From a virus, in the IMG/VR virus record IMGVR_UViG_3300021185_001145, positions 1 to 64,000 of that record: DNA of 64,000 nt; one strand, written 5' to 3'. Each line of letters starts with the position of its first letter. Position 1 is the stretch's first letter. Positions 4,872 through 12,891 of this stretch are shown in pieces. The notes below the pieces were generated by a model, which worked only from the letters and a program-made list of their open reading frames with translations, was not told the origin of the DNA and did not search any database. The translations under genes were made by a program, and so were the position numbers.

Positions 4872-6047
4872 TTAGAATGGTGCATAATCGTCTTTTGTTT
4901 CAGGCGCAGTCTCGCCTTCTTCGGTTGTTGAAACAATCGCCTCAGCATCTACTTTGGTGTAGAGGTCTAGGAATGAAGTTTTGGTTTCTTCATCAAAGCG
5001 GTTCACACAAAGTTCAATTGCTTTCATCTTCTCACCGAAGATAGCGTAGGCTTGGGCAATGTGAACCAGACGGCGAGTGGCGATAATCTCATCAACACCA
5101 CCTTCGTAAAATGTTTTACGAATGATATCTGCCCAGTCAACCAACTTGCCGATGAACCCGTCATCTTCAATCTTCAGAGACTTGAACACTTTGCCGAGAA
5201 TTTTTTTCTCAACTGAGGTGCTTGCATACTCTTGCTCAACAGTAATTGGGAAACGCTCAAGGAACGCTTCATCAAGGATTTGAGCGGCGATGAAACGACC
5301 GTCATCAGAACCTTTACCTTTAGTGTTAGCAGTGGCAACAACGTTGAAACCAGGTGCTGGTTCAACAATCTCACCAGTCTTTTTGTTGATGTAAGGCTTG
5401 CCTTCCATGATTGCTTGAATTGCAAGCAACTTGTTAGAACCACGGTCAATCTCATCAAGAACAAGAACAGCACCACGGCGCATCGCATTCAGAACAGGAC
5501 CTTCACGATAGACAACGTTACCGTTGACTAGTGTATTGCCACCAATCAAATCATCTTCATCAGTCTCAATTGAAACAGACACTTTAATCATCTCACGGTT
5601 TGAAGCCGCACAAGCCTGTTCGACCATGAACGTTTTACCGTTACCAGATAGACCAGTCACCATGACAGGATAGAACATTTTAGAAACAAGAATGTTTTTC
5701 AAATCATTGAAGAACCCGAAAGGCACATAAAGCGCATCTTTGGCAGGGACAAAATTTTCTGAAATAGTCTGGGTCATAGTCACAGGTTTCATCGGGATGA
5801 CTTGAGCAACAGCCATAGCAGGTGCTTCAACAGCAGGCGCTACAGTCTGAGCGGTGATAGCATCAGCGGTAGGCAGACGATACTGACCACGACCAATACG
5901 AAATTCAGGTTTAGTAAAAATAAAGCGTGGGCGCTTGGCACCCATCTCTTCGGCGAGGTCGCAAATTTCTTGCTTGGTCACAACAGGACCAAACTTTGCA
6001 ACAGCGGCTTCAACGAAGGAATTCTGTTCAGTTGTCATTTTCATCAT
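4872..6047 (-). CDS. MoxR-type AAA+ ATPase (CobS-like)
   Basis: 391 residues. Residues ~1-60 form a small N-terminal region ending RIGRGQYRLP, followed by an Ala/Pro-rich linker (61-90) and an AAA+ core with Walker A GLSGNGKT (132-139) and Walker B VLVLDEID (194-201). Marine T4-like phages carry this gene annotated as cobS, but it belongs to the broad MoxR group, whose members act with VWA-domain partners as chaperones that remodel or insert cofactors. The VWA/HEXXH protein encoded just upstream is the obvious partner. It has its own consensus promoter (6110-6138). Starts at 6047, 6044 or 6038 are all possible (MMKM). Cobalt chelation itself is not supported. Confidence 0.88.
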   Translation of the reverse strand: MMKMTTEQNSFVEAAVAKFGPVVTKQEICDLAEEMGAKRPRFIFTKPEFRIGRGQYRLPTADAITAQTVAPAVEAPAMAVAQVIPMKPVTMTQTISENFVPAKDALYVPFGFFNDLKNILVSKMFYPVMVTGLSGNGKTFMVEQACAASNREMIKVSVSIETDEDDLIGGNTLVNGNVVYREGPVLNAMRRGAVLVLDEIDRGSNKLLAIQAIMEGKPYINKKTGEIVEPAPGFNVVATANTKGKGSDDGRFIAAQILDEAFLERFPITVEQEYASTSVEKKILGKVFKSLKIEDDGFIGKLVDWADIIRKTFYEGGVDEIIATRRLVHIAQAYAIFGEKMKAIELCVNRFDEETKTSFLDLYTKVDAEAIVSTTEEGETAPETKDDYAPF

Positions 6048-8727: not shown

Positions 8728-9408
8728 TTATTTTATAGCAATCGCACCCACAAACAGATGATTTTGCCAAAATGTCTGAACACTGCTAAAACCAGCATAT
8801 TCAAGCATTTCATTCAATTCAGACCATGTATTTGGCTTTAACATGTTGCGTAACGTCTGTTCTTTGTTCATAATATCTTCTGCGTTGAAACTCTCACGCT
8901 TATGGTCATAGAACATGAATGTCAGTATATCTTGCACTTTAGGAGAGCAAGAATATGTCTTCTCTGCAAAGATAAACGCACCACCCGGATTGAGTGCTTC
9001 ATATACGTTATTCAACACTTCTTGTCTATCTTTGCGTGGCATGAACTGTAGTGTAAAGATTGAAGTGACTAAAGACGCATTGTGCATATGAACATCACGC
9101 ACATCTTCGAAACGCAATTCTAGGTCGTCAACTTCATGCTTACGCATTCTCTCATCCATCGCTTCTTTGAAGCCATCTGCCATTTCAAAACCGACATAAT
9201 GAGCATGTGGCGCAAATGTATTTTGCTCAATCATTGCACCTAGTGTCTTGCCTGTAGAACAACCCAAATCATATACGTTTGTATCGTCCTCAACAAAATA
9301 TTTTGACATCTTAACAATGTCATCGTGTAGTACAGAATACCCACGAATTGATTGGTCTATGTGATTATCGAAACCCTCTTCACGGTGTGCAAAAGTAAAA
9401 TCAGCCAT
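8728..9408 (-). CDS. CmoA-like carboxy-SAM synthase / SAM-dependent methyltransferase-fold protein
   Basis: 226 residues. It follows E. coli CmoA along most of its length: SIRGY (20-24), motif I VYDLGCSTG (45-53), NASLVTSIFTLQFMP (110-124), LNPGGAFIFAEK (139-150), YDHKRESF (167-174) and a C-terminal FWQNHLFVGAIAIK. CmoA converts SAM and prephenate to carboxy-SAM, which CmoB uses for tRNA wobble uridine; no CmoB is visible here. The ATG overlaps the stop of the DNA methyltransferase by 8 bases, so the two are translationally coupled. By eye, the position of E. coli Arg199 (carboxylate contact) reads Glu (K-E-Q for K-R-S), with an Arg one helical turn later, so substrate must be tested. A plain methyltransferase is the alternative. 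Confidence 0.8.
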   Translation of the reverse strand: MADFTFAHREEGFDNHIDQSIRGYSVLHDDIVKMSKYFVEDDTNVYDLGCSTGKTLGAMIEQNTFAPHAHYVGFEMADGFKEAMDERMRKHEVDDLELRFEDVRDVHMHNASLVTSIFTLQFMPRKDRQEVLNNVYEALNPGGAFIFAEKTYSCSPKVQDILTFMFYDHKRESFNAEDIMNKEQTLRNMLKPNTWSELNEMLEYAGFSSVQTFWQNHLFVGAIAIK

Positions 9409-10540
9409 TATTGTATCCCTTCAAAACGTTTTCATAAATGCTAGTTGCAACTGCTTTATACATCAATGGAGCAACTGCACGACCAAGACGCTCTACCTGA
9501 GCATCAAATTCACCTGTCAAAATAAAGTCTTCTGGGAAACCCATCAGACGTTTACACTCTTTAATAGTCAACTTACGATTTGCTTCTGGGTGAAATACAC
9601 CAGACATTCCTCGCTTCTGACCTTGCTGAGTTAGTGTTGGAGATGGCATATCTGGACAAGGGCGTATCATGTTGAAACAACTTGCCTTTGGATTCCATTC
9701 TCTAAACTGTGGGTCACTCGGTTTTGTATGTTTCTTTGGGTTGAACGGAAGAGGTGTGATAAACTTCTTCTGATATGAACCCTCAACAAAATCAAGTAAC
9801 ATCTGAACTTCTTCTTCATCATTCTCAATATCTGCTAGTGCTTCACGCATTGAAATATGCTTGTCGATTGTAGGGGCAGGAAAGATGTTATGCAAGTTTA
9901 AAAAAGACAAACCAACTTTATCTGCTACATCTTCACGCACACAAATAAAGATTGTACGTTCTCTTGCTTGAGGTACGCCATAGTTTGCACCATTCAAAAC
10001 TTCGTATGTAACATTGTAACCAATTGCCTCAAACGCATTGATAAACGCATTCAGTTTACTTTTTGCTTCACCAAATGTGATACCCTTGACGTTCTCTGCA
10101 ACAATTACTTTCGGTTGAATACCTTCTGCAATACGAATGAATTCATAGAACAAATCTTCGATTGCAACTTGCTTCTTTCCGTCAGAGTAACTTTTCTCTT
10201 TACCCCAACCTTTTTCTCGCTTACCAGCAACGGAGAAAGCAGAACAAGGGGGAGACCCATCAAGTATGTCGAGTTCGCCCTTTTGTACTCCTGCCATGCT
10301 AAGGAAGTCTTCTGCGCTGTATTTCTTAATGTCATCAACTAGAACTTTCGTATCGGGAAAGTTTGCAGTGTATGTTTCAACAGCGGCTTCTACAAACTCA
10401 TTAATCAGTAATATGTCTGAACCTGCTAGACGATACCCCAATGAAGAACCGCCACCACCAGCAAAACAACTGATAGTAGTGAACTTCTTTTGAGATGAAA
10501 GTGCTTTCACATCATCAACATTATATTTTTCATATCTCAT
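9401..10540 (-). CDS. C5-cytosine DNA methyltransferase with Asn-to-Arg change in motif X (candidate carboxymethyltransferase)
   Basis: 379 residues with the full M.HhaI-type motif series: motif I ISCFAGGGGSSLGYRLAG (23-40), catalytic motif IV SPPCSAFS (96-103, nucleophile C99), motif VI AENVKGI (148-154), motif VIII QARERTIFI (191-199), motif IX LTIKECKRLMGFPEDF (324-339) and motif X. Motif X reads ERLGRAVAPLM, with Arg354 (codon 9481-9479) where the family has Asn in GNAV/GNSV. The equivalent Asn in M.MpeI, when changed to Lys, permits carboxy-SAM use. It has its own promoter (10573-10601) flanked by direct repeats, and is coupled to the CmoA-like gene. No restriction endonuclease is adjacent, so it modifies phage DNA, probably for protection. 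Confidence 0.93.
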   Translation of the reverse strand: MRYEKYNVDDVKALSSQKKFTTISCFAGGGGSSLGYRLAGSDILLINEFVEAAVETYTANFPDTKVLVDDIKKYSAEDFLSMAGVQKGELDILDGSPPCSAFSVAGKREKGWGKEKSYSDGKKQVAIEDLFYEFIRIAEGIQPKVIVAENVKGITFGEAKSKLNAFINAFEAIGYNVTYEVLNGANYGVPQARERTIFICVREDVADKVGLSFLNLHNIFPAPTIDKHISMREALADIENDEEEVQMLLDFVEGSYQKKFITPLPFNPKKHTKPSDPQFREWNPKASCFNMIRPCPDMPSPTLTQQGQKRGMSGVFHPEANRKLTIKECKRLMGFPEDFILTGEFDAQVERLGRAVAPLMYKAVATSIYENVLKGYNNG

Positions 10541-10596: not shown

Positions 10597-10601
10597 GTCA
10601 A
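10573..10601 (-). promoter_or_regulatory. Sigma70-type promoter for the DNA methyltransferase gene
   Basis: Minus strand TTGACA (10601-10596), 17-bp spacer, TACTAT (10578-10573). The -35 overlaps the end of the upstream asparagine-synthetase-like gene. Start near 10566, 26 nt before the ATG. Confidence 0.75.
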
Positions 10602-11410
10602 GCAAAAAGTGAAGGAGTTGCAGAATAATTTACATAGTCTCTAACCAAGTCCATGGTTCTACCCCTATTGCGATAGTTCAATTCTTTGTCTTCAAGCAAC
10701 TGTTCGAAATACTCAGGAATACCAGCAACCAACTGTAGATTAGCATGTTTACGCTTTTTGGGTAGTTTTTCGAATTCTTCATATGCTTCGATAATTGGTG
10801 CTTTCTGATATGGCTTGTTAAAGAAATCGTGGTCGTACCGCATCATCCACTCTTTCACACTTTCACGCACATAAGGTGCGACTAAGTTCGCTTCTATCTC
10901 TTCACACAACTGTTCTTGCTGTAGAATGCCAGCAGGATTCTCTGCACCAAAGTAATCATTGCGAAACTTATCAAACAACTCTTTCGTATGCTTGAAGTGA
11001 ATGTTTGCACGTTTTGATACACCATACCAACCATCTGCGGCAACACCAGACAATACATGCTTCTCTTTAATATGAGGATAAACATAAAGAAACGGGAATG
11101 TACATTCTACATGTGTCTTCTTCTTACAGTCATAGTAACGCATCAGACGCAAGAAATCATCTTTCACATTATTGACTGGTACATCAATCTCATGGTGATT
11201 CCAACCATATATCTCAGCCGCTTCTTTCGCCGCTAAACTATCGACTGTTTCTTGACCATTCACATACATCGTATATGTGTGTACGTTTTTTCCTAAACGC
11301 ATTGCAGAAAATGCACAAGTCAAACTATCGACACCACCAGACATTAAAACAGCAACGTCTTTTCCAGGTGCTTCATCTTCTACTATTTTTGTTATTAAAT
11401 CATCAATCAT
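10598..11410 (-). CDS. Asparagine-synthetase-like ATP-dependent PP-loop protein
   Basis: 270 residues. PP-loop SGGVDS at 24-29 binds ATP pyrophosphate, and LSGVAADGWYG (120-130) corresponds to the LSGxGADExFGGY block of the C-terminal domain of AsnB. There is no N-terminal glutaminase domain, so it would need ammonia or another amine as nucleophile. AsnB-type domains adenylate a carboxylate and then form an amide. Its start overlaps the dCMP deaminase stop (ATGA), and the carboxy-SAM-linked methyltransferase pair follows directly. I infer a possible role amidating a carboxymethylated base. Other PP-loop roles such as tRNA or cofactor modification are not excluded. Confidence 0.75.
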   Translation of the reverse strand: MIDDLITKIVEDEAPGKDVAVLMSGGVDSLTCAFSAMRLGKNVHTYTMYVNGQETVDSLAAKEAAEIYGWNHHEIDVPVNNVKDDFLRLMRYYDCKKKTHVECTFPFLYVYPHIKEKHVLSGVAADGWYGVSKRANIHFKHTKELFDKFRNDYFGAENPAGILQQEQLCEEIEANLVAPYVRESVKEWMMRYDHDFFNKPYQKAPIIEAYEEFEKLPKKRKHANLQLVAGIPEYFEQLLEDKELNYRNRGRTMDLVRDYVNYSATPSLFA

Positions 11411-11841
11411 TTTATTTTACTTACTTGTACGCCACTACGCAATAAGAACTGAATGCCCTCATCTGTCTTGTAGTGGTCTCTATAATATACAGTATCAATA
11501 CCTGCTTGATATATCAACTTAGCACAGTCAATGCATGGTGATGCTGTGCAGAATAAAATTGCGTCATCTGCGCTATCGTTTCCTCTTGCAATCTTTGTAA
11601 TTGCATTTGCTTCTGCATGTAGCACTTCTTTTTTTGTGTTACCATCTTCATCTTCACATACATTAGACCAACCAGCAGGCATACCGTTGTATCCAATAGA
11701 AATAATTCTATCGTCTTTCACAACAACACAACCCACTTTAAGACGTTCCGCAGAAGATAACTGTGCGTACACTTCTGCGGCGTCCATATGCGCTTTAATG
11801 AATTTGCTCTTCACTATCTGCGCCCTCTTCTGCATCTTCAA
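11407..11841 (-). CDS. cd: dCMP deaminase
   Basis: Up to 144 residues. Zinc and catalytic motifs: HAEANAI (zinc His and proton-shuttle Glu) and PCIDC (two zinc cysteines), with KVGCVVVKDDRIISIGYNGMPAG typical of dCMP deaminases such as T4 Cd. It converts dCMP to dUMP for thymidylate synthesis. The longest frame starts with TTG (11841) and overlaps the upstream gene by 47 bases; ATG codons at 11835 and 11787 are alternatives, the last giving MDAAEVYAQLSSAERLKVG, which aligns with the T4 start. Coupled to the asparagine-synthetase-like gene. Confidence 0.9.
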   Translation of the reverse strand: MKMQKRAQIVKSKFIKAHMDAAEVYAQLSSAERLKVGCVVVKDDRIISIGYNGMPAGWSNVCEDEDGNTKKEVLHAEANAITKIARGNDSADDAILFCTASPCIDCAKLIYQAGIDTVYYRDHYKTDEGIQFLLRSGVQVSKIK

Positions 11842-12207: not shown

Positions 12208-12891
12208 TTAAATAAGTCTATGAATAGCGTACTGTTTACCAAGACGCTTGTTTCGTTTTTTCATTGCCATGTGTTTCTGTAAAGGTGAAACGAACTTCCA
12301 GAAAGGTTTACCTCTACTGAGTGCATAATTCTGAATGTAGTATCTACTCCATTCGTGTTGTACTCTTTCTCTATGCTCCTGATTAGAAACATCATAATAG
12401 ATAATGTCTGCAAATACTGGACGCTCAATATTCAAATACAACGCAGGATAACTTGCAGAAATCTCTCTACCTTTATGACCCTCATCAGATAACGCTTTAA
12501 TTTTAGAATTGATGAATGTCTCATACTCTGGTTCATCATCTGCACGTTGTTCAACAGGTTTTGGGTTTACAATGATAAAGAAATCATAATTGACACCCAC
12601 TTGTGATGCATGAATTGATGGACCGCTTCTGTTCTTTGACATTCTGAACAATACTTCAGCGAGTAAAGATGCTTCCATAACAAAAACAAAACCATCTTCC
12701 ATTTTCAATACAGGTGGTTTATCAAAAGGGTAATGAGCGCATGTTGTAAATGGCTTCATATTCTTTTTATCCAAATCAGTCTTAAAAGAAAAATACTTCA
12801 TAAGTTTCTCTACGTCAGGAACTTGTTGAACACTCTTCATCATTTCAGCGACTTCTTTACGCTCTTCTTTTACTTGTTCTACTTCACTCAT
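12208..12891 (-). CDS. Peptide-deformylase-like protein lacking catalytic residues
   Basis: 227 residues. The three deformylase motifs can be placed in order: GPSIHASQVGV (90-100) for GLAAPQVG, REISASYPALYLNIERP (142-158) for EGCLSxPGxxxxVxRP, and QHEWSRYYIQ (178-187) for QHExDHLxG. The zinc cysteine of EGCLS is absent and the second histidine of HExxH is replaced (HEWSR), so metal binding and deformylation are unlikely. Active deformylases occur in marine T4-like phages, so this appears to be a relative whose active site has been lost, perhaps kept for binding. Start overlaps gp46 stop (ATGA). Family assignment is by eye and moderately sure. Confidence 0.6.
   Translation of the reverse strand: MSEVEQVKEERKEVAEMMKSVQQVPDVEKLMKYFSFKTDLDKKNMKPFTTCAHYPFDKPPVLKMEDGFVFVMEASLLAEVLFRMSKNRSGPSIHASQVGVNYDFFIIVNPKPVEQRADDEPEYETFINSKIKALSDEGHKGREISASYPALYLNIERPVFADIIYYDVSNQEHRERVQHEWSRYYIQNYALSRGKPFWKFVSPLQKHMAMKKRNKRLGKQYAIHRLI

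Follow-up and report, generated by a model that had tools for sequence, protein, structure and literature searches.

The analysis concerns a 64,000-base stretch of viral DNA (hereafter the window), which is positions 1 to 64,000 of the 83,590-base IMG/VR virus record IMGVR_UViG_3300021185_001145. The minus-strand open reading frame at 10598-11410, which starts with ATG and encodes 270 residues, very probably specifies a ligase of carboxymethylated DNA that takes an alpha-amino acid as its second substrate, with glycine as the first candidate; this assignment overlaps in part with the alternative, weighed below, that the amine is another one. The protein, referred to here as CmoY, is a further member of the three-enzyme CmoA-CmoX-CmoY pathway already published for Synechococcus phage S-B43 (Yang et al., Nat Commun, December 2025, PMC12783734). 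The direct evidence obtained in this study comprises the genes, their domains, the predicted fold, the key residues, the gene cluster, and its conserved linkage; that the window proteins carry out the same reactions as the 49-54% identical S-B43 proteins is what we infer from these data by analogy. What is labelled "asparagine synthase" in this T4-type phage can hence be read as a defined step of DNA hypermodification that lends itself to testing, and the ligase is again seen travelling with the carboxymethyltransferase.

According to the main text of the S-B43 report (PMC12783734), CmoA makes carboxy-S-adenosylmethionine (carboxy-SAM), CmoX uses this compound and not S-adenosylmethionine (SAM) to produce 5-carboxymethylcytosine at GC, and the AsnB-type CmoY couples glycine to 5-carboxymethylcytosine in an ATP-dependent manner, both in cells and on DNA in vitro. 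The same text describes the glycine amide 5gcxmdC in S-B43 phage DNA, with the acid form undetected, and demonstrates restriction resistance for the carboxymethylated form of DNA; the adenylation mechanism of CmoY is proposed only. In the literature search this was the one paper on the gene set; eight others that name carboxymethylcytosine deal, judging by their titles, with mammalian epigenetics or sequencing software. Its survey over IMG/VR v4 collected 5,615 CmoX sequences, among which the source record of the window, or a near relative of it, may already be present.

CmoY and its partner genes in the window

The window CmoY is 49.4% identical to S-B43 CmoY (A0A514ABJ0, record MN018232) over residues 1-261, or 97% of its length, and S-B43 CmoY is its joint best match together with proteins of two other Synechococcus phages. 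Both are lone AsnB-type ligase domains of nearly equal size (270 residues in the window, 271 in S-B43) and are clustered with CmoX and CmoA, although the gene order is Y-X-A in the window and A-Y-X in S-B43, and a dCMP deaminase gene lies upstream in the window. The initial annotation had described a stand-alone AsnB-type domain that keeps the PP-loop and the LSG block of asparagine synthetase and lacks its glutaminase half, and the present data agree with this description of an ATP-pyrophosphate ligase domain standing alone. The Pfam domain Asn_synthase (PF00733) matched residues 18-140 (E = 3e-15; 57.2 bits against a cut-off of 21), the PP-loop SGGVDS and the LSGVAADG block occupy residues 24-29 and 120-127, respectively, and no glutaminase domain was found by Pfam in CmoY or in the seven neighbouring proteins scanned together with it.

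Alignments of CmoY were built with 14 proteins and then with 36 rows, and a further one with 11 rows. Residues that do not vary in the 36-row alignment include S24, G26, D28, D57, K98, E102, G122, D126, and R150, and additionally P179, N198, P200, Q202, K203, H222, Q226, E236, and N245. The 29 rows of the two groups, window-type and S-B43-type, share 57 invariant positions, and 60 columns are invariant in the 11-row alignment, which includes both the window and S-B43 proteins.

The AlphaFold2 model of the window CmoY, computed from the 36-row alignment, reached a mean predicted local distance difference test (pLDDT) score of 91.0 and a predicted template modelling (pTM) score of 0.88. Its top solved Foldseek matches were E. 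coli AsnB, beta-lactam synthetase, and carbapenam synthetase, and the VIA-align comparison gave Z scores of 22.7 for human ASNS (3.1 A over 256 residues), 21.7 for beta-lactam synthetase, 20.4 for carbapenam synthetase, 20.0 for E. coli AsnB, and 16.6 for the hydroxyamidotransferase TsnB9. Weaker matches (Z of 11.7 and below) were to other PP-loop enzymes, including LarE, the nitrile synthetase ArtA, NAD and GMP synthetases, and Cap9. The predicted fold corresponds to the synthetase portion of the asparagine and beta-lactam enzymes. The likeness to the C-terminal domain of asparagine synthetases (1CT9, 6GQ3) extends over the whole protein (Z of 20.0-22.7 over about 255 residues) and includes the PP-loop, but identity is only 12-18%, the glutaminase half is absent from CmoY, and the Glu of the LSGE motif is Val123; further, asparagine synthetase acts on aspartate, whereas CmoY would act on a DNA-linked carboxyl group. 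Beta-lactam (1MC1) and carbapenam (1Q19) synthetases share the fold and, unlike CmoY, are two-domain proteins of about 500 residues. They work through an adenylate and an amine that is not ammonia, and close a ring on a small molecule.

A place in the QueC/7-deazaguanine pathway was considered and rejected. The QueC domain PF06508 matched residues 20-82 only (29.7 bits, cut-off 22) compared with 57.2 bits for Asn_synthase, and the protein scored 26.4 bits on the NCBI model TIGR00364, which has a cut-off of 150.3.

The DNA methyltransferase that the initial annotation had placed beside this gene is real. Across a gap of 57 bases from CmoY, the minus-strand gene at 9401-10540 encodes 379 residues with a strong match to PF00145 (Pfam, 4.2e-59), and the protein, a CmoX orthologue predicted to be a cytosine-C5 carboxymethyltransferase, matched the S-B43 CmoX structure 8YF3 at E = 1.1e-111 (52.5% identity), the next match being HaeIII methylase at 8.5e-26. 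Its SPPC motif at residues 96-99 puts Cys99 at the catalytic position, and Arg354 replaces the Asn of motif X. To our knowledge, and judging from the comparison with HhaI, an Arg at motif X is rare among C5-methyltransferases. The corresponding Arg350 of S-B43 CmoX lies at the position of HhaI Asn304 and contacts the carboxyl of carboxy-SAM, and a basic residue likewise takes the place of the motif-X Asn in the engineered M.MpeI N374K, as set out in the main text of PMC12783734. All nine residues named there for S-B43 CmoX (F25, E47, F48, D69, S95, P96, P97, C98, and R350) are kept in the window protein.

The third gene of the cluster, which had gone unnamed in the initial annotation, is found at 8728-9408 on the minus strand, shares 8 bases with the end of cmoX, and encodes 226 residues. 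The protein is predicted to be a carboxy-SAM synthase from its match to TIGR00740 (8.7e-36) and its full-length alignment with the solved CmoA proteins 1IM8 (4.9e-29) and 4GEK (4.5e-27), and it is 53.5% identical to S-B43 CmoA. The window and S-B43 proteins have Lys-Glu where E. coli CmoA has a Lys-Arg pair. The Arg of this pair is Arg199 by our count, a residue taken to have a functional role. Despite its Lys-Glu, it is S-B43 CmoA that PMC12783734 describes as the faster enzyme.

Linkage of CmoY with CmoX and CmoA across loci

Loci were collected by scanning IMG/VR with single CmoY queries, which yielded 31 loci for the window protein, 29 for S-B43, 9 for Alexandravirus, and 6 for PaBG, and with a window/S-B43-type alignment query, from which the best 80 of 513 relatives were taken. 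In total, 116 distinct loci were counted, leaving out L119, L122, L124, and L128, whose contigs are those of L064, L054, L066, and L070, respectively. The window/S-B43 type accounts for 101 of the 116; many of these are near-identical, and the CmoY proteins form 45 clusters at 90% identity.

Both CmoX and CmoA were present in the flanks of 68 of the 101 window/S-B43-type loci, CmoX only in 14, CmoA only in 2, and neither in 17, many of which end at contig boundaries. Wherever CmoX was in the flank (82 of 101), it was on the CmoY strand, in 81 cases within 300 bases, and the diagnostic position was Arg in all 77 proteins covering it, five being too short. Of the 68 loci flanked on each side by 1.5 kb or more, 52 had both genes, 6 had CmoX only, and 10 had neither, so that CmoX was in the flank of 58. 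The 90% identity clusters gave a similar picture, with CmoX in the flanks of 40 of 45 and of 34 of the 37 that have a well-flanked member. Four of the 10 well-flanked loci with neither gene (L112, L118, L129, and L130) carry an adjacent Arg-type CmoX-CmoA pair elsewhere on the contig.

The PaBG-type loci had CmoA together with an Arg-type CmoX in six out of six. The asparagine synthase of phage PaBG is classed with metabolic genes in the relevant passage of PMC7412058. A 2018 report on Dickeya jumbo phages (PMC6143709) lists, in the passage concerned, a methyltransferase, an asparagine synthase, a DNA-cytosine methyltransferase, and two further genes as shared by phages AD1 and Y3 and as lacking in JA11, a pattern that would fit their having been gained or lost together. 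An ordinary asparagine or amino-acid amide synthetase working on free metabolites, encoded by an auxiliary metabolic gene, would fit the "asparagine synthase" label that several phage records bear as well as the shared fold family. We nevertheless regard this as highly improbable and rejected auxiliary asparagine synthesis on domain content, scores, and linkage: the window CmoY reaches 47 bits on the AsnB equivalog TIGR01536, far under its cut-off of 267, and has no N-terminal glutaminase domain of the kind that marks glutamine-hydrolysing asparagine synthases, CmoY genes are linked to Arg-type CmoX, and ligase activity on DNA has been demonstrated for the S-B43 protein (PMC12783734, main text).

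The initial annotation had also raised a nucleotide-level role through the neighbouring dCMP deaminase. This neighbour exists (11407-11841, minus strand; PF00383, 6.1e-23), and its gene overlaps that of CmoY by ATGA; its listed start is TTG, and an in-frame ATG six bases inward, which is used by the relative L002, is equally likely. A dCMP deaminase gene also lies directly upstream, with a gap of 11 bases, in L105 and L106, two distant loci whose CmoY is about 50% identical to that of the window, which indicates that this neighbourhood arose or persisted more than once. An enzyme coupled to the deaminase and acting on free modified dCMP would be in line with both the overlap and these two loci, but there is very little chance that it is the correct reading, since no more than 10 of the 116 loci have the deaminase next to CmoY, compared with the close CmoX of most window/S-B43-type loci, and since S-B43 CmoY acts on DNA in vitro (PMC12783734, main text). 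As eight of the 10 are close relatives, L105 and L106 being the others, the coupling looks incidental. The deaminase looks like an ordinary enzyme of the pyrimidine pool, given that a dUTPase is also encoded in the window, and it was not judged to be a member of the pathway.

One CmoY relative was encountered in a GTDB pattern scan, as the sole one among 28 pattern matches (L094; PAAV01000055.1, a Chloroflexi metagenome-assembled genome). CmoX adjoins CmoY there, and the assembly has a CmoA on a different contig; the contigs are probably those of a phage binned with the Chloroflexi genome.

Predicted reactions and choice of amine

In the proposed pathway, CmoA would convert SAM and prephenate into carboxy-SAM. 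Cys99 of CmoX would then attack C6 of a DNA cytosine, and the carboxymethyl group would be moved to C5 while Arg354 grips the cofactor carboxylate, giving 5-carboxymethylcytosine. In CmoY, the PP-loop would bind ATP and the DNA-borne carboxyl group would be adenylated; the amino group of an amino acid, likeliest glycine, would attack this adenylate, so that AMP leaves and the amide 5-glycyl-carboxymethylcytosine stays. Such a bulky modified base may help to shield the phage DNA from restriction. An amide-bearing DNA hypermodification is also made by Mom of phage Mu, on N6 of adenine and by an unrelated protein. The activation of a carboxyl group on modified DNA and its coupling to an amine, as put forward in the initial annotation, therefore holds in kind, having been demonstrated for the 49% identical S-B43 protein (PMC12783734, main text). 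Of the two products it had offered, the larger group stands, and a carbamoylmethyl group made with ammonia has become less likely, as no glutaminase domain was found and the characterised relative uses glycine.

Concerning the amine, glycine is proposed on the similarity to the glycine-using S-B43 enzyme. The use of ammonia in the same pathway, which would yield 5-carbamoylmethylcytosine, appears improbable, even though the AsnB-type fold would accommodate it. In the profile alignment, LSGVAADG of the window CmoY corresponds to LSGEGSDE of E. coli AsnB, and the Glu of AsnB is replaced by Val123, which, as far as we know the role of this Glu, speaks against ammonia, as does the lack of a glutaminase domain in CmoY and the seven neighbours scanned. 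A second cluster of associated ligases does carry a glutaminase domain, and its members are inferred in the main text of PMC12783734 to be ammonia users, which favours ammonia in principle; these enzymes, however, cluster apart, and the window CmoY is 45-49% identical to the S-B43-type proteins. Free ammonia may, with low probability, be the amine source.

That the amine is another alpha-amino acid or a small amine is unlikely but deserves more weight than ammonia. The window and S-B43 proteins differ at about half of their residues, which leaves room for another substrate; against this stand the 57 invariant positions common to the window-type and S-B43-type proteins. Further, scanning 36 window proteins, several of them unnamed, brought to light no recognisable gene for making an amine; the annotation covered the window, beyond which the record extends for another 19.6 kb. 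The assignment of CmoY to the ligation of an alpha-amino acid, glycine first, remains the preferred one.

A broader and rather speculative idea is that CmoY is an exchangeable slot and that the amine differs by phage lineage. The clade of the window might then use a non-glycine alpha-amino acid, Alexandra-type phages a special amine or N-acyl amino acid obtained via a DgcN-like (DUF1611) protein, sometimes plus an alanine-racemase-like protein, and Y3-like phages might tailor the product by a 2-oxoglutarate oxygenase. If the amine does vary by clade, the CmoY enzymes would form a natural set of DNA-labelling ligases, and this variation would explain how phages diversify their bases against restriction.

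Several results weigh against the assignment of the window protein and its pathway. The sequence does not reveal which amine is used. The CmoA homologue scored 123.8 bits on TIGR00740, below the equivalog cut-off of 193.3, and is for this reason named a homologue. The loci were gathered by CmoY only, and their counts speak to CmoX in the company of CmoY and not to CmoX by itself. The six other well-flanked loci with neither gene had no CmoX, either in a search of the whole record (L115, L116, L120, and L127, on contigs of 6-18 kb) or on the whole contigs of 5-7 kb (L110 and L114). No CmoA match was found on five contigs with CmoY and CmoX (L020-L024, 11.7-76.9 kb), which may be fragments or may belong to phages whose host supplies carboxy-SAM. 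In Salmonella phage Sen-NF, a CmoY relative of 26.7% identity sits beside a 2-oxoglutarate oxygenase, and no match to PF00145, CmoX, or CmoA was found. In Staphylococcus phage vB-SscS-F1, the genes for CmoA, CmoY, and a C5-methyltransferase (L035:6813-7817) stand in one row, but this methyltransferase has GSPC and apparently Gly at the Arg position, where the alignment is weak. Finally, the window shows no shortage of GpC (observed/expected 1.025), and hence no sign that GC, the target of the S-B43 enzyme, is under selection.

Jumbo phages and further genes of the window

The nine Alexandra-type loci have CmoA near CmoY and no CmoX within 8 kb. NC_061445, the sole Alexandra-type record searched whole, carries an Arg-type CmoX further away, and the related jumbo phages NC_061450, NC_047880, and OR620964 likewise have a distant Arg-type CmoX. 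A D12-type adenine methyltransferase is encoded nearby in all three of the four Erwinia/Yersinia jumbo phages that were scanned for it. As CmoA and CmoY have no C5-methyltransferase close by in these phages, carboxymethyl-adenine was considered as their product and dropped, since an intein-split Arg-type CmoX was present in all four whole records (for L034, L038, L039, and L040).

The inteins of these four phages (L045-L048; NC_047880, NC_061450, NC_061445, and OR620964) are 349-357 residues long and are inserted directly before the catalytic cysteine (SPP, the intein, then HN/C), with the motif-X Arg kept. All four matched PF14890 below its cut-off, and the two that were scanned with TIGR01443 scored above its cut-off. 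In the literature, we found no report joining an intein, a cytosine methyltransferase, and a jumbo phage, and the main text of PMC12783734 does not contain the word "intein".

Alexandra-type phages also have a DgcN-like DUF1611 gene between CmoA and CmoY (L034:4020-5054, L083:6953-8005, and L086:6956-8029). PF07755 was matched in all three of these, which were the ones scanned, and L085 and L087 were added by a similar protein start. The L034 protein matched NF041892 at 1.4e-91, below the cut-off, and its gene is directly followed by an alanine-racemase-like gene (5051-5986). The DgcN-like protein may supply or acylate the amine for CmoY; neither DUF1611 nor a racemase is mentioned in the main text of PMC12783734. 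In addition, a gene for a 2-oxoglutarate/Fe(II) oxygenase follows the CmoY relative in Erwinia phage Y3 (L040:7050-7688) and in Salmonella phage Sen-NF (L037:6760-7404), and the oxygenase is a possible tailoring enzyme.

As for the virus itself, PHROGs matches in the window to a clamp loader, a processivity factor, a translation repressor, a late sigma factor, a UvsY-like protein, a portal, a major head protein, a terminase, and a tail sheath identify it as a T4-type myovirus. The photosystem gene PF00124, a sign of a cyanobacterial host, was not found in the 83,590-base record, which is possibly a fragment. Among the relatives of its gp46-type protein, the best 12 of 3,139 are from Stenotrophomonas, Methylophilales, Prochlorococcus, and Synechococcus phages (48-51%). 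A protein of the peptide-deformylase type (PF01327, 5.9e-11) is encoded at 12208-12891 on the minus strand, in the interval that separates the gp46-type gene from the deaminase cluster.
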